In this document: positions 28,016 through 43,455 of the stretch, piece after piece | How the letters are laid out: each line of letters starts with the position of its first letter | How positions within the stretch are numbered: the first letter of the stretch is position 1 | Source: Phaeobacter sp. 11ANDIMAR09 | Lineage (GTDB): Bacteria > Pseudomonadota > Alphaproteobacteria > Rhodobacterales > Rhodobacteraceae | Assembly: GCF_001294455.1 (NCBI RefSeq) | Contig: NZ_LIKT01000007.1 | Coordinates: forward strand, 1 to 64,000 | Reading direction: 5' to 3' | DNA length: 64,000 nt | The notes under the pieces: generated by a model | Databases searched by the model: none | The model's input: only the letters and a program-made list of their open reading frames with translations | What the model was told of the DNA's origin: nothing | Translations under genes and position numbers: made by a program

Positions 28016-29131
28016 CTAAGCCATGCCGCCCGCCACAAGCCCCTTGGCAATTTGTGCATAGGCCTCAGCAATTGGCCCCGCTCCTGTGGCGACAGGCCTA
28101 CCGGCATCCCCGGCCAGGCGGGTGTCAAGATCAATGGGCAGCGCTCCGAGCAAAGGCAGACCCAGCGCCTCGGCCTCGGCCGCGACACCCCCATGACCAA
28201 AGATATGATGCTCACCGCCACAATCCGGGCAGGTGAAGAAGGACATGTTCTCGATCAGACCCAGAACCGGCGTCTTTAGGGTTTTGAACATATCCAGCGC
28301 CTTGCGGGCATCTATAAGTGCAACATCCTGCGGCGTGCTGACAACAATGGCGCCGCTCAATTCGCTCTTGGTGCAGAGGGTCAGCTGCACATCCCCCGTT
28401 CCGGGCGGCAGATCAACGATCAGCACATCTAACTCGCCCCAGTTCACCTGGCCCAACATCTGTTGCAGAGCCCCCATCAGCATGGGCCCCCGCCAGACGA
28501 CAGCCTTGTCTTCGGGCACCATAAGACCAATGGACATCAGGGTGACGCCATGGGCGTGCAAAGGTTCTATCACAGTGCCATCGGAACTGCTTGGCCGCCC
28601 AGAGACCCCCATCATACGCGGCTGGCTTGGGCCATATATATCGGCATCCAGCAAACCAACGCGCCGCCCCTGCCGCGACAGCGCCACCGCCAGGTTGGCA
28701 CTGACGGTAGACTTCCCCACGCCTCCTTTGCCAGAGGCCACAGCCAGAATACGGGCAACCCCTTTGGGTTTGATTGGTCCAGCTTGGGCTTTTGAGTGTC
28801 CGCCAATTTTTAGACTTGGCGCTGCGCCCGCCTTAGGCGGGGAAGACGCAGGCGCATCTGCCGGACCATGGGCTGTCAGCGCCACCGAAACAGCCCCCAC
28901 CCCGCTGAGCGCCAGAACAGCGGCCTCCGCCGCGCGACGCAGAGGCTCCATGTGTTGCGCTATTTCGGGGCTTGGGGCTTCGATGACAAAACGGACCTTA
29001 GCCTGCCCCTCTGTGCCCGGCATCTCATCAAACCTTAGCGCACGCACCATATCCCGAGATATCAAAGTACCCCCATCCGGCAGCGCCAAGCGCTCCAGCG
29101 CGGCTTTTACCTGTTTCTGTGTTACCGGCAT
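28016..29131 (-). CDS. mrp: Mrp/NBP35-family iron-sulfur cluster carrier
   Basis: Mrp (ApbC) is a P-loop ATPase that carries and delivers iron-sulfur clusters in the cytoplasm. The 371-residue product has an N-terminal MIP18-like domain (residues about 1-90), a low-complexity linker, the deviant Walker A motif ASGKGGVGKSTVSANLA, DADIYGPSQPRM and the cluster-binding CxxC in MSFFTCPDCGG. A strong AGGAGGG precedes the ATG at 29131. Confidence 0.94.
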   Translation of the reverse strand: MPVTQKQVKAALERLALPDGGTLISRDMVRALRFDEMPGTEGQAKVRFVIEAPSPEIAQHMEPLRRAAEAAVLALSGVGAVSVALTAHGPADAPASSPPKAGAAPSLKIGGHSKAQAGPIKPKGVARILAVASGKGGVGKSTVSANLAVALSRQGRRVGLLDADIYGPSQPRMMGVSGRPSSSDGTVIEPLHAHGVTLMSIGLMVPEDKAVVWRGPMLMGALQQMLGQVNWGELDVLIVDLPPGTGDVQLTLCTKSELSGAIVVSTPQDVALIDARKALDMFKTLKTPVLGLIENMSFFTCPDCGGEHHIFGHGGVAAEAEALGLPLLGALPIDLDTRLAGDAGRPVATGAGPIAEAYAQIAKGLVAGGMA

Positions 29132-29334
29132 GTCCCGCCCTCCTACGCCCGATTCCCAAGGCCCACCCCTAGCTCAAGGAGCTGTCTTGGTGAAGCAGGC
29201 AGCCTGGACCCGCCCGGCCCATTCCGCAAGGGAAAGCAGGCAGAGGGTCCGAGCAAGTTGCCCCATCGGAAAGCAGAAATGGACAATTTCGCCCAAAAAA
29301 CAGCCTGTTTACAAAAGGGTAACAATCAACCCAT

Positions 29335-29398
29335 GCAAATGCTGCATAGCAGAATTGCTTTCAAAGGGGATTGTGCAAGTGCAGCATTTAGCTATTTT
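29335..29398 (+). promoter_or_regulatory. Putative promoter and inverted-repeat operator of the DUF1127-CcsR unit
   Basis: In the 326-bp gap between mrp and the DUF1127 gene, TTGTGC (29371) and TATTTT (29393) are spaced by 16 bases and could serve as promoter boxes. A perfect 10-base inverted repeat flanks and enters it: AAATGCTGCA (29337-29346) and TGCAGCATTT (29380-29389). The 13-mer GCAAATGCTGCAT at 29335 recurs upstream of pyc (36378). In R. sphaeroides the homologous unit is driven by RpoH-type sigma factors; I could not confirm a sigma class here. Confidence 0.35.
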
Positions 29399-29457
29399 GA
29401 ATTCAAGAAACGCCGAGACCGGCACAACACATTAGACCAGTTCTGAGGATAGACCCG

Positions 29458-29676
29458 ATGGCCGCTGTAAACCAAATCGCAACACCTAAGTCTGTATTCT
29501 CGTTCCTGCCAATCGCCTGGTTCGACGGGCTGAGCACAAAATTCGCGCGTTACCGTCTGTACCGCGAAACCTACAATGAGCTCTCCGAGCTTTCGGGGCG
29601 TGATCTGGCAGATCTGGGTTTGAACCGCTCGATGATCAAACGCGTCGCCTATCAGGCCGCATACGAAAACAACTAA
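29458..29676 (+). CDS. ccaF1: DUF1127 small protein, CcaF1-like RNA-binding factor
   Basis: A 72-residue basic protein whose C-terminal half (FARYRLYRETYNELSELSGR, then DLADLGLNRSMIKRVA) is a typical DUF1127 domain with an arginine-rich helix. GAGGA lies seven bases before the ATG. It is followed directly by four CCUCCUCCC stem-loops, the arrangement of CcaF1 and CcsR1-4 in Rhodobacter sphaeroides, where CcaF1 binds RNA and affects processing and turnover of the sRNAs. The assignment as CcaF1 rests on domain plus context. Confidence 0.85.
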   Translation: MAAVNQIATPKSVFSFLPIAWFDGLSTKFARYRLYRETYNELSELSGRDLADLGLNRSMIKRVAYQAAYENN

Positions 29677-29683
29677 TAGAGAT

Positions 29684-29716
29684 CAGGCTCTTTTCTCCTC
29701 CTCCCTAAAGAGCCTG
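29684..29716 (+). ncRNA. CcsR/cuckoo-type stem-loop RNA 1
   Basis: A perfect 10-bp stem (CAGGCTCTTT with AAAGAGCCTG) presents the loop motif CTCCTCCTCCCT, which is an anti-Shine-Dalgarno sequence. It begins eight bases after the DUF1127 stop codon. In R. sphaeroides such RNAs are cut from the DUF1127 mRNA and titrate targets through the CCUCCUCCC loop. Confidence 0.85.
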
Positions 29717-29722
29717 TCCTAC

Positions 29723-29756
29723 GCGGTGACATCCTCCTCCTCCCTGATGTCACCGC
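29723..29756 (+). ncRNA. CcsR/cuckoo-type stem-loop RNA 2
   Basis: A perfect 11-bp stem (GCGGTGACATC with GATGTCACCGC) carries the identical 12-base loop CTCCTCCTCCCT at 29734-29745. It is separated from stem-loop 1 by six bases. The stem sequence is unrelated to that of RNA 1 while the loop is identical, so selection is on the loop. Confidence 0.85.
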
Positions 29757-29785
29757 ACCCTATACCGGCCAAGCCGGAACAGAAT

Positions 29786-29819
29786 ACATCTGGATCTCCT
29801 CCTCCCTTGGTCCCGATGT
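29786..29819 (+). ncRNA. CcsR/cuckoo-type stem-loop RNA 3
   Basis: The same 12-base loop motif (29796-29807) sits on a weaker stem, ACATC with GATGT, then a mismatch, then GGAT with GTCC. A small hairpin CCGGC-CAA-GCCGG (29765-29777) precedes it. This copy is the least stable of the four. Confidence 0.75.
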
Positions 29820-29827
29820 TGTCATGA

Positions 29828-29875
29828 ACGGCGGTGCCCCCTCCTCCTCCCTGGGCGCCGCCGTTTCTTGTTTTT
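29828..29875 (+). ncRNA. CcsR/cuckoo-type stem-loop RNA 4 with terminator tail
   Basis: A 12-bp stem (ACGGCGGTGCCC with GGGCGCCGCCGT, one G-T pair) carries the fourth CTCCTCCTCCCT loop (29841-29852). It is followed by TTCTTGTTTTT, so this copy also works as the rho-independent terminator of the DUF1127-sRNA transcript. Confidence 0.85.
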
Positions 29876-36214: not shown

Positions 36215-36522
36215 AACATGTAGCAAAGCCTGCGAGCGACTTTCGCTCTTCTTCCACGGATTGTGGCACCGGAGACGGGGTTAGACATATGTCAGTAGCA
36301 ATGACCAAAGATTCGCTACGGCCTGATTTGCACAAAATTTAGGCGAAAAAAGAAGGGCCCTGCGCGCAATTTCAGCCGCAAATGCTGCATCTGCACAGAA
36401 AACTGACGGATTCTAGCCGTATGCGAGCGCAATCATGCCGCAGATACCCAATACTACGGCTATACCAGTGGCTAAGATGTAACTAACACTTCGCCAACCC
36501 TAGACTACTCCGAGGAGCGACA
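36215..36522. other. Intergenic region upstream of pyc with inverted repeats
   Basis: These 308 bases contain no gene. They should hold the pyc promoter. Two features stand out: GCAAATGCTGCAT at 36378-36390, identical to a 13-mer upstream of the DUF1127 gene, and an 8-base inverted repeat TAGCCGTA (36414-36421) / TACGGCTA (36455-36462). GAGGAG precedes the pyc start. Confidence 0.4.
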
Positions 36523-40748: not shown

Positions 40749-40823
40749 GCGGGCGTAGCTCAGGGGTAGAGCATAACCTTGCCAAGGTTAGGGTCGGGCG
40801 TTCGAATCGCCTCGCCCGCTCCA
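40749..40823 (+). tRNA. tRNA-Gly(GCC), copy 1
   Basis: A complete tRNA with acceptor GCGGGCG / CGCCCGC, D-loop AGCTCAGGGGTAGAGC, anticodon loop CTTGCCAAG (anticodon GCC), T-arm GGGCGTTCGAATCGCC region and encoded CCA. Identical copies are at 43128 and 43381. Confidence 0.97.
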
Positions 40824-40838
40824 TTTTGGATTTCGAAC

Positions 40839-40866
40839 AGGCCACTCCTTCTGGGGTGGCCTTTCG
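40839..40866 (+). terminator. Terminator after tRNA-Gly copy 1
   Basis: AGGCCACTCC-TTCT-GGGGTGGCCT forms a near-perfect stem followed by TTCG, right after the tRNA. The T-tract is short. Confidence 0.55.
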
Positions 40867-40966
40867 CGTTCCAATGGGTGACTCTAACGCAGCCTTGCGT
40901 GGAATCAGCTTTGCGCATAGGAACAGATCCAGAACACCAAAACAAGAAACAGGCAGGCGGCACGAC

Positions 40967-41926
40967 ATGCTCACATCCGTGGAACTTTGCGCAGGGGCTG
41001 GCGGTCAGGCGCTGGGACTGGAACGCGCCGGCTTTGATCACACCGCATTGGTCGAGATCGACAAGCACTGCTGTGCCACCCTGCGCCACAACCGCCCCAA
41101 CTGGAACGTGCTCGAAGAGGACCTGCGCCTGTTCAAAGACGACGCCAGCGCCTACAAAGGCATTGATCTACTGGCTGGCGGCCTGCCCTGCCCGCCCTTT
41201 TCCGTCGCGGGCAAACAGCTGGGCGAAAAGGATGAGCGCAATCTCTTCGACGATGCCATTCATATCGTCGATTCGACCCGTCCCCGTGCGGTCATGATCG
41301 AAAACGTGCGCGGCTTTCTGGATGCCGCCTTTCATGACTACCGCGAAAAGCTGAAAAAGCAGCTCTCCAAACTCGGCTATGAAACCGATTGGCGCCTGCT
41401 CAATGCCTCTGACTACGGCGTGCCGCAGCTGCGCCCGCGGGTGGCAATTGTGGCGCTGCGCAAGGAATACTCAGACCAGTTCAACTGGCCGGAACCACTG
41501 CCACACAATCCGCCCACCGTGGGCGAAACCCTGTTGGACCTGATGAAGGCCCGCGGCTGGCGCGGTGCCGACGACTGGGCCGCCCAGGCGGATGAGATTG
41601 CCCCGACAATCGTCGGGGGCTCCAAAAAACACGGCGGGCCGGACTTGGGCCCAACACGGGCCCGGCGCGCCTGGGCCTCTCTGGGAGTTGAGGGACGCAC
41701 CATCGCCTATGAGGCACCAGACCCTTTCCACAACGATATGCCCCGCCTTACCGTGCGCATGGTGGCCCGCATCCAGGGCTTCCCGGATGCCTGGCATTTC
41801 ACCGGCGCCAAGACCAATGCCTATCGCCAGGTTGGCAATGCCTTCCCGCCCCCCGTAGCCGAGGCCGTGGCCCGCCAGCTGCGCGAGGCCATCGCCCGCC
41901 CTGCCCTGCGTGTGGTCTCGAAATAG
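40967..41926 (+). CDS. DNA (cytosine-5) methyltransferase of a type II restriction-modification system
   Basis: A 319-residue C5-cytosine methyltransferase. Conserved motifs are I (ELCAGAGGQALGLERAGF), IV with the catalytic cysteine (GGLPCPPFSV, Cys 75), VI (IENVRGF), VIII (QLRPRV) and X (QVGNAFPPPVAEAVA). The open frame extends back through the tRNA, but the protein must start at the ATG at 40967, where motif I begins at residue 6. It is followed after 105 bases by a NaeI-like endonuclease gene, so it most likely protects the host from that enzyme. The target sequence is set by the variable region between motifs VIII and IX and cannot be read directly. Confidence 0.92.
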   Translation: MLTSVELCAGAGGQALGLERAGFDHTALVEIDKHCCATLRHNRPNWNVLEEDLRLFKDDASAYKGIDLLAGGLPCPPFSVAGKQLGEKDERNLFDDAIHIVDSTRPRAVMIENVRGFLDAAFHDYREKLKKQLSKLGYETDWRLLNASDYGVPQLRPRVAIVALRKEYSDQFNWPEPLPHNPPTVGETLLDLMKARGWRGADDWAAQADEIAPTIVGGSKKHGGPDLGPTRARRAWASLGVEGRTIAYEAPDPFHNDMPRLTVRMVARIQGFPDAWHFTGAKTNAYRQVGNAFPPPVAEAVARQLREAIARPALRVVSK

Positions 41927-41972
41927 CCACAGCCACAACAGGACGCCTCCGATCCAAAAGCGCCTGTCCTTT

Positions 41973-42000
41973 CCCTTTCACCTTTCTATAAATATTCAAA
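41973..42000. repeat. 28-base intergenic repeat, copy 1
   Basis: A 28-base stretch starting CCCTTTCACCTTTCTA and ending AAATATTCAAA recurs at 48256-48283 with one mismatch. This copy lies between the methyltransferase and endonuclease genes. Confidence 0.7.
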
Positions 42001-42031
42001 TTCACCGATTTCGGCCCAGACCGAGGTAGAT

Positions 42032-42931
42032 ATGAAACGCAGCCTGCCGCCCAGTCTCATTGCCCCGGGTCACCCGGATTTCGACGCTCTGACCGCGCTG
42101 GCAACAGAGATCACTGCCCGCGCTGGTGGGACGCTGGAGCTGCAGCAGAGCTTCCCGGCCATGCTGCGCGCCTGCATTGATGATGTCATCATGACGCCCA
42201 AAACCGGACGGCGTGCCTATGAAGAGCTGGAAAAAACCGAAAAGACCTATATCGGCACCCGCGTCGAGATCGAGCTGCGCGCCCTGTTGCGCCTGCCTCG
42301 GGGACGGCTTGACACCGAAATCCTGGGGCGGGACATGGATATCAAAAACACCATGGGCAGCAATTGGATGATTCCAACCGAAGCCCTGGGCCAGCCTTGC
42401 CTGCTGGTGGCTGCCGATGAGGCCCGCGCGCGCTGCTATCTCGGGCTGATTATCGCCCACCCCGATTACCTGACCAAAGGCAAAAACAAGGATGGCAAAG
42501 CATCAATCTCGGCGGCAGGCTTTGCCAATATCCTCTGGCTGATCTGCGATCAGGCCTACCCTGCCAATTTCTGGCGTCGACAACCTGCCGAGATCGTCAC
42601 CGAGATCTTTGCCCAGCCCACCGGCAATGCCCGCATGGCCTGCCTGTTTCGCCTTATCCAAAATCAGCCCATCGCCCGCGATGTGGTCGAAGCCGTAGCC
42701 CAGCAAAAGGACTTCATGCGCCGCATCCGCTCGGACAAGGGCCGTGGCACCCGGGACCTGCTGGAACAAGAGGGCATCCTGCTGCTCTCGGGCCAATACG
42801 ACAGCCAGCTGATCAAGGCGCTGGAGTTGCCCCATTGCAGCGGCGCAGAATTCATCTCCTCAACGCCCCAAGGCAAGCGACACCAGGGCCTGGCTGCGCA
42901 GGCCGGGTTCAACCTGCCCCAGGGTCTCTAA
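42032..42931 (+). CDS. NaeI-family type II restriction endonuclease
   Basis: A 299-residue protein resembling the NaeI restriction endonuclease. Family landmarks are YEELEKTEKTYIGTRVE, DMDIKNTMGSNWMIPTEA, PCLLVAADEARARCYLGLI and KASISAAGFANILWL. Acidic and basic residues fit the NaeI active site: D94, D103 and K105 have the same spacing as D86, D95 and K97 of NaeI, with E79 or E81 as the first acid. NaeI cuts GCCGGC and its partner is a C5 methyltransferase, as here. Specificity in this organism is inferred only. The C-terminal part would correspond to the CAP-like DNA-binding domain. Confidence 0.8.
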   Translation: MKRSLPPSLIAPGHPDFDALTALATEITARAGGTLELQQSFPAMLRACIDDVIMTPKTGRRAYEELEKTEKTYIGTRVEIELRALLRLPRGRLDTEILGRDMDIKNTMGSNWMIPTEALGQPCLLVAADEARARCYLGLIIAHPDYLTKGKNKDGKASISAAGFANILWLICDQAYPANFWRRQPAEIVTEIFAQPTGNARMACLFRLIQNQPIARDVVEAVAQQKDFMRRIRSDKGRGTRDLLEQEGILLLSGQYDSQLIKALELPHCSGAEFISSTPQGKRHQGLAAQAGFNLPQGL

Positions 42932-43127
42932 ACTAGCGGCCACGTCCAAGCCCTCTGACCAAGCTGCCTTTAGCGCCCGCAAAGAACCGCCCCTGCACCA
43001 CGGACAAGAGATGCCCCGCCCTGCCCCTGCACCGATTTGGGGGAATGCAGAATTCTTACGCCCCAAGTCACTTTCCCTCTTGCGGCCTCGCTGGGGATTG
43101 CCTAAACACCGCTTCACCAAATGTAGC

Positions 43128-43202
43128 GCGGGCGTAGCTCAGGGGTAGAGCATAACCTTGCCAAGGTTAGGGTCGGGCGTTCGAATCGCCTCGCCCGCTC
43201 CA
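43128..43202 (+). tRNA. tRNA-Gly(GCC), copy 2
   Basis: Identical in sequence to copy 1 over all 75 bases including CCA. It lies in the first unit of a 253-bp tandem duplication. Confidence 0.97.
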
Positions 43203-43215
43203 TTTGGACCAAACA

Positions 43216-43252
43216 GGCCGCCAGATGCATATCGCATCGGCGGCCTTTTGTT
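43216..43252 (+). terminator. Terminator after tRNA-Gly copy 2
   Basis: GGCCGCC-A-GATGC pairs with GCATC-G-GCGGCC and is followed by TTTTGTTT. Confidence 0.85.
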
Positions 43253-43380
43253 TGCCTCGCACCCCCTTCTGCGCTGCAATCAGCTTGCGTCACCGCGGTG
43301 CAAAAAACTCTCCCTCCCCGTCACTTTCCCTCTTGCGGCCCCTCCCGGCTTTGCCTAAACACCGCTTCACCAAATGTAGC

Positions 43381-43455
43381 GCGGGCGTAGCTCAGGGGTA
43401 GAGCATAACCTTGCCAAGGTTAGGGTCGGGCGTTCGAATCGCCTCGCCCGCTCCA
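43381..43455 (+). tRNA. tRNA-Gly(GCC), copy 3
   Basis: Identical to copies 1 and 2, in the second unit of the tandem duplication. Confidence 0.97.

Follow-up and report, generated by a model that had tools for sequence, protein, structure and literature searches.

The closest described counterpart of the locus analysed here is the ccaF1-CcsR operon of Rhodobacter sphaeroides, in which a DUF1127 gene is accompanied by hairpins with CCUCCUCCC loops (PMC10253847); one RNA of that species, RS0680a, is described as two stem-loops with the motif (PMC3927594). A second precedent is NfeR1 of S. meliloti, which silences ntrB and the mRNAs of two ABC transporter binding proteins (PMC10746234), and whose candidate targets are mostly transport mRNAs (PMC10746234, PMC7143759). 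The NfeR1 promoter carries TGCA-N6-GCAT in the stretch from -72 to -60, close to the LsrB site of AbcR1, and is bound by LsrB (PMC10746234). In Brucella, three DUF1127 genes and an sRNA are under the control of the LysR-type regulator VtlR (PMC12595884), and the trxB-vtlR arrangement has been called well conserved in Alphaproteobacteria (PMC7486931). A 2025 paper whose tree contains R. sphaeroides describes LsrB itself as found only in Rhizobiales (PMC11975290).

Herein, we investigated a 64,000-nt stretch of the draft genome of Phaeobacter sp. 11ANDIMAR09 (4.7 Mb, 101 contigs), hereafter the window, in which a first-pass annotation made from the letters alone had proposed a CcaF1-CcsR-like array of four stem-loops behind a DUF1127 gene. 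The kind of locus had been correctly recognised (PMC10253847): CCUCCUCCC loops are found on successive hairpins with variable stems, and a short DUF1127 gene lies directly upstream on the same strand, as is typical of the CcsR/cuckoo (CIN1) family. Motif counts, folding and the PF06568 match agree on four hairpins with the loop CUCCUCCUCCCU located 3' of the 72-aa reading frame. On the plus strand, CCTCCTCCC occurs at 29697, 29736, 29798 and 29843, within 155 bases 3' of the DUF1127 gene, and each of the four copies forms the loop of one hairpin upon folding. A fifth match in the window (35397, minus strand) is away from the array; the shuffled window contained 0.74 matches on average, and none of 100 shuffles reached 5. 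Across the 4.7 Mb of the genome, CCTCCTCCCT was found five times, four of them in the array, and the sole remaining copy lies just 3' of a second DUF1127 gene of the genome. The features of the locus are given in Table 1.

Table 1. Position of the features of the DUF1127 locus within the window.
Feature	Position	Strand	Remarks
Box 1, TGCA-N6-GCAT, candidate LsrB/VtlR-type (LysR-type) site	29334..29347	+	roughly -71 to -58 relative to the inferred start
Promoter core TTG-N19-TAT	29371..29395	+	TTG 29371-29373, TAT 29393-29395; RpoH-like or housekeeping
Box 2, TGCA-N6-GCAT	29374..29387	+	directly behind TTG; less constant than box 1
DUF1127 gene (ccaF1-like), 72 aa	29458..29676	+	PF06568, E 5.1e-13
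First CcsR1-type unit (hairpins 1 + 2)	29681..29761	+	RF02791 1-83/83, 37.1 bits, E 1.4e-7
Hairpin 1	29684..29716	+	loop motif 29697-29705; -15.2 kcal/mol, z -4.1
Hairpin 2	29723..29756	+	loop motif 29736-29744; -19.2 kcal/mol, z -7.1
Small spacer hairpin without loop motif, between the two units	29765..29777	+	folding, alignment
Second CcsR1-type unit (hairpins 3 + 4)	29782..29869	+	RF02791 1-83/83, 34.5 bits, E 8e-7
Hairpin 3	29786..29819	+	loop motif 29798-29806; -17.7 kcal/mol, z -2.8, weakest fold
Hairpin 4, probable terminator	29827..29875	+	hairpin 29827-29865, loop motif 29843-29851, then T-rich tail; -27.1 kcal/mol, z -5.6

The DUF1127 gene is preceded by a gene for a Mrp/NUBPL-type P-loop ATPase and the array is followed by a gene for a UvrD-type helicase, both on the minus strand. 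The DUF1127 protein shares 94% identity with a protein of a Pseudophaeobacter MAG and 93% with a protein of Roseobacter sp. MED193, and a search of annotated plasmids with the locus gave no match. Elsewhere in the window, three identical tRNA genes (40749, 43128 and 43381; span 40749-43452) are clustered within 2.7 kb, and their anticodon, read by eye, is GCC.

The entire array of 207 nt folds with a z-score of -9.9. Hairpin 4 had been proposed to double as a terminator; this is plausible, as its stem and T-rich tail are kept in relatives, but it was not reported by a terminator scan limited to loops of 3-8 bases. The spacer hairpin between the two units was paired in 97.8% of cells over 27 aligned sequences; by eye, comparable short hairpins stand between the units of longer arrays, and the spacer hairpin is possibly a processing landmark.

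The first-pass annotation had further taken the fixed loop on free stems as a sign of selection on the loop. Alignment A1 comprised 27 sequences: the window plus 26 relatives out of the 28 that have four motifs exactly, loci L209 and L218 being omitted because their spacing is odd. In A1, whose members are orthologues and not independent, the loops are nearly fixed while the stems vary with compensation: over the 49 pairs, 90.3% of cells are paired, compared with 25.0-48.7% in slid controls, and changes on both sides were seen in 37 cells, compared with 17.0 in shuffles and 1-30 when slid. The covariation score was 0.125 versus 0.097, and none of 500 shuffles reached 0.125. Two weaker measures were less decisive: 11 pairs had changed on both sides versus 7.9 expected from shuffling (24 of 500 shuffles reach 11), and the further pair types numbered 30 versus 31.2 (reached by 427 of 500). 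Hairpin 2 was paired in 100% of cells, with 3 of its 11 pairs changed on both sides; helix 1 was paired in only 75.6%, partly owing to alignment gaps. In addition, the arms of 302 motif copies from 69 loci matched within their own hairpin at 7.70 of 8 positions and at 6.22 when swapped, the highest of 200 shuffles in the swapped-arm matching being 6.34. Covarying stems, nearly fixed loops and the better match of own arms over swapped arms support selection on the loop. The description of the stems as unrelated holds only in part: swapped arms still match at 6.2 of 8 positions on average, compared with 7.7 for true partners, and by eye hairpins 2 and 4 have a G-rich, GCGGYG-type 5' arm in common.

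We next considered whether the four hairpins represent four RNAs or two. The CcsR1 model (RF02791) covers 83 nt with two hairpins, and in a search of 461 bases with permissive settings it fitted the array end to end twice, giving two full-length units of about 83 nt. Both fits of this covariance model, a kind of search named as a check in the first-pass annotation, are below the RF02791 gathering score of 65.3. The same model fitted an 8-motif relative four times and a 10-motif relative five times (three at E 0.002-0.01), in each case once per hairpin pair and in no case reaching the gathering score. The spacing of the motifs in the window is 39, 62 and 45. When the close relatives are counted together with the window, the 233 spacings divide into 135 of 36-50, 87 of 58-85 and 11 others, and neighbouring spacings alternate between short and long in 145 of 156 cases. 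In 30 loci from across the wider family, alternation was seen in 50 of 90 cases, with 24 of the 40 exceptions coming from one 26-motif array, so the paired layout is not universal. The ar14 model (RF02344, three hairpins) placed over hairpins 1-3 scored 49.9 bits, below its gathering score of 58.8, which two of 11 other loci (L319 and L321) passed; since it outscores both CcsR1 fits, the reading as two units is not forced by Rfam. Because of the paired spacing, the double CcsR1 fit and the two stem-loops of RS0680a, the four loops are nevertheless better read as two putative CcsR-type RNAs than as CcsR1-4. The one-to-one match of the four hairpins to CcsR1-4, as first proposed, is given up accordingly, RS0680a having two stem-loops and the two-hairpin CcsR1 model fitting twice.

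The number of hairpins varies widely. At least one motif was present in 68 of 76 relative loci, with a maximum of 11, and every motif was on the strand of the gene, none on the other strand; at least one motif pair was found in 218 of 295 family genomes. Arrays of the cuckoo family are reportedly described with 2 to 4 hairpins. One family genome (G165, locus L015) carries a tandem array of 26 CCTCCTCCC hairpins, with spacings of 42-51 nt that recur in sets of three, and by eye this array stands behind a DUF1127-like reading frame. Loops that face each other were considered for the long arrays of G165 and G272; for G165 the idea was rejected, since folding of 330 nt gave ordinary single-loop hairpins. 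Phage-borne arrays were also considered; a two-motif scan of viral contigs gave at least 120 stretches, 79 of the 80 listed being single matches, and the pattern is too loose to tell.

Two further DUF1127 genes of the genome are followed by related elements. Behind the second (G000:C6:102133-102390, minus strand; L001, L232) stands a single hairpin that has this loop too; of 11 further genomes from the genus, one keeps CTCCTCCC within 130 nt, and several others have degenerate forms. The third (G000:C26:46591-46803, minus strand; L234, L298) is followed by CTCCTCCCT, and CTCCTCCC is kept at this place in 7 of the 10 genus relatives found.

The promoter region was assessed in alignment A2, consisting of the window and 20 of the 76 relatives, picked by hand. 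Within these 21 promoters the TTG-N19-TA core was invariant, as were the TGCA and GCATAGC blocks; a sigma-70 scan found no promoter. The core is compatible with the TTG / TAT motif of RpoHI/RpoHII promoters (PMC10673084), which is no proof of RpoH control. With TAT taken as beginning at -12, the start would lie near 29405, from which the place of box 1 in Table 1 is counted.

The distribution of TGCA-N6-GCAT was surveyed in 134 DUF1127 loci, in either orientation and within 330 nt upstream; the loci belong to several paralogous classes and are non-independent. Of one set of 30 loci, 24 were included; L315 (truncated), L322 (a stop inside), L325-L327 (genes already in the other locus set) and L314 (simply not entered) were left out, and one gene was counted twice (L294 = L312, both without a box). 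The box was present upstream of 105 of the 134 loci, compared with 0 for the reversed pattern and 4 in a downstream control of equal length. In the gene class of the window it was found in 73 of 77 loci, and in a second class outside the genus in 10 of 18, all from different genera. Three DUF1127 genes of the genome itself lack it. That anti-Shine-Dalgarno loops and boxes form a linked pair had been suggested by three of the six DUF1127 genes of the genome and was rejected, as the association was not significant within gene classes (p 0.32, 0.49 and 0.08); the pooled value (p 1e-8) is confounded by gene class. The box is common to many DUF1127 genes and is not specific to array-bearing ones. 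Two published forms of the site were missing: the A. tumefaciens and B. abortus consensus GCAT-N3-TG-N3-T was absent from 29127-29457 on either strand, and the Brucella motif CAATGCAGCCATGCA was absent upstream of the DUF1127 gene of the window. An extra box of the form TGCA-N2-TGC-N-GCAT was noticed at 36382-36395; it lies on the minus strand and seems to be intergenic.

A candidate regulator was sought in 40 genomes with a LysR-type protein encoded behind trxB in another genome as the query. The genome of the window has one strong LsrB/VtlR-like match (G000:C14:24735-25598; 50% identity, 300.6 bits; next own match 124.3), with 56 of 66 residues identical in the DNA-binding domain, and a match of at least 266 bits was found in all 24 family genomes searched, this one included. 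A position of the homologue beside trxB was ruled out, as the two are not adjacent in this genome.

Given that the loops are complementary to an extended Shine-Dalgarno sequence, the start sites of the genome were examined. The pattern GGGAGGA-N3-11-ATG was found 83 times, compared with 15 times for the reversed pattern. Two of these sites are on the strand opposite the array and a third is close to a contig end (C15); without them, the survey comprised 77 distinct ORFs, of which 59 have 90 aa or more. For the control, the pattern AAAGGAG gave 123 sites, and the first 30 of these led to 29 ORFs, 16 with the same minimum length. Periplasmic solute-binding families accounted for 25 of the 59 ORFs behind GGGAGGA and one of the 16 behind AAAGGAG (Fisher p 0.007), where false starts may be more numerous, the reversed-pattern count being relatively higher (38 to 123 versus 15 to 83). 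When only Pfam-matching ORFs were considered, the proportions were 25 of 51 and one of 14 (p 0.005). The 25 ORFs comprise nine DctP, five Peripla_BP_6, three SBP_bac_1/8, three TctC and two NMT1-like proteins and one each of Bmp, SBP_bac_3 and SBP_bac_5; two DctQ proteins and five AMP-binding CoA ligases also stand among the 59. A crude signal-peptide test was positive for 35 of the 59 and two of the 16 controls, and GGGAGGA could also be a strong Shine-Dalgarno sequence favoured by secreted proteins, without regulation. The density of GGGAGGA per Mb in genomes G001-G100 of the 295 had a median of 17.0 in those without a motif pair (32), 21.9 in those with one (13) and 25.8 in those with at least two (55); this was set aside, since the p value of 4e-4 (first versus last) ignores G+C and kinship.

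Collectively, we consider it probable, judging from sequence comparison, that the locus is a ccaF1-CcsR (cuckoo, CIN1-type) operon with an anti-Shine-Dalgarno sRNA array that is processed and restrains solute uptake. Transcription would begin around 29405, from a promoter whose conservation suggests an RpoH-like or housekeeping type, and the LysR-type box upstream, likewise conserved, would most likely be read by the genome's own LsrB/VtlR homologue. A single transcript, ending at hairpin 4, would contain the DUF1127 mRNA and a pair of CcsR-type RNAs, each with two hairpins. By homology to R. sphaeroides, RNase E together with the DUF1127 protein may cut this transcript into mRNA and sRNAs. 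The loop CUCCUCCUCCCU is predicted to pair with GGGAGGA-type extended Shine-Dalgarno sequences and to block translation; to go by the start-site survey, the targets would chiefly be periplasmic solute-binding proteins and some CoA ligases. Stress induction and a role in carbon metabolism, both part of the first-pass proposal, are inferred here by carrying them over from R. sphaeroides.

The loops might instead mimic the 3' end of 16S rRNA and act on all Shine-Dalgarno mRNAs, with no defined regulon. The loop presumably includes the 16S anti-Shine-Dalgarno core, and the array with 26 motifs resembles a dosage effect, both of which would suit such a global titration; however, we take the loop to continue into CCC, unlike the 16S tail, and the starts that carry the matching GGG extension show a functional bias, which makes titration improbable in our view. 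It also appears unlikely that the main role of the array lies in cis or in sponging proteins, with hairpins that bind Hfq, RNase E or the DUF1127 protein and tune the operon's own mRNA, pairing with other mRNAs being secondary. This would accord with the reports that CcaF1 is an RNA-binding protein involved in CcsR maturation (PMC10253847) and that CcsR1-4 are Hfq-dependent (PMC7866481), but a 9-base loop that stays fixed on variable stems and is complementary to Shine-Dalgarno sequences points to base pairing, and in NfeR1 this loop acts through pairing (PMC10746234).

The identity of the regulator is a more serious matter, and that the boxes serve another LysR-type or an unrelated regulator, rather than the LsrB/VtlR homologue, is a real possibility that we place a little short of an even chance. 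TGCA-N6-GCAT is short, and its link to LsrB derives from rhizobia; the A. tumefaciens/B. abortus consensus is absent at the window locus, the Brucella motif has N5, not N6, between its half sites, and LsrB has been described as confined to Rhizobiales (PMC11975290). Against this stand the control of three DUF1127 genes by VtlR in Brucella (PMC12595884) and the strong LsrB/VtlR-like match in each of the 24 family genomes. The statement on Rhizobiales in the available text of PMC11975290, the absence of GCAT-N3-TG-N3-T and the weaker alternation in the wider family lowered our confidence in the operon and in its proposed regulatory circuit, and raised that in a different regulator.

The array itself is ordinary and of an already-known type; novelty would lie in the circuit. 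Tentatively, and with some doubt, we propose that the DUF1127-CcsR operon of Rhodobacterales is the RNA arm of an LsrB/VtlR-type circuit, in which the regulator would activate DUF1127 genes via TGCA-N6-GCAT and the array would shut down solute-binding proteins via GGGAGGA starts. The link from CcsR to LsrB/VtlR is not made in the available text of PMC12501420, PMC10746234, PMC7143759 and PMC11975290, which is weak evidence of absence, the subscription literature being mostly uncovered. If true, the circuit would correspond to AbcR/NfeR1 of Rhizobiales while lying beyond that group, to which LsrB is reportedly confined, and its strength would be set by the hairpin number (up to at least 26). 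CcsR RNAs, the control of DUF1127 genes by VtlR/LsrB and the silencing of uptake by anti-Shine-Dalgarno loops would then be joined in a large marine lineage. The proposal gives a candidate target list, a testable promoter box with its regulator, and a reason for the variable number of hairpins.

Compared with the named systems, the locus most resembles ccaF1-CcsR1-4 of R. sphaeroides (RF02791) in its DUF1127 gene, the CCUCCUCCC hairpin loops, the terminator at the end and the TTG / TAT core. It differs in that R. sphaeroides has four RNAs, whereas two putative CcsR-type units below the Rfam gathering score are found here, and in the conserved TGCA-N6-GCAT boxes, for which the available text on the R. 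sphaeroides operon contains no mention. With alpha-r14/NfeR1 of S. meliloti (RF02344) it has in common a shared loop on variable stems, a TGCA-N6-GCAT at a similar promoter position and a leaning of the predicted targets towards transport, transport mRNAs being most of those described for NfeR1 in the text available, though the largest group of candidate targets here is TRAP (DctP), not ABC. NfeR1, unlike the array here, is a three-hairpin RNA with its own sigma-70 promoter (PMC10746234). Finally, the VtlR-DUF1127/AbcR2 circuit of Brucella, as far as the available text describes it, combines a LysR-type regulator of DUF1127 genes with an sRNA, as is proposed here; its published motif CAATGCAGCCATGCA is absent from the upstream region here, and that text mentions no DUF1127 array with such loops.
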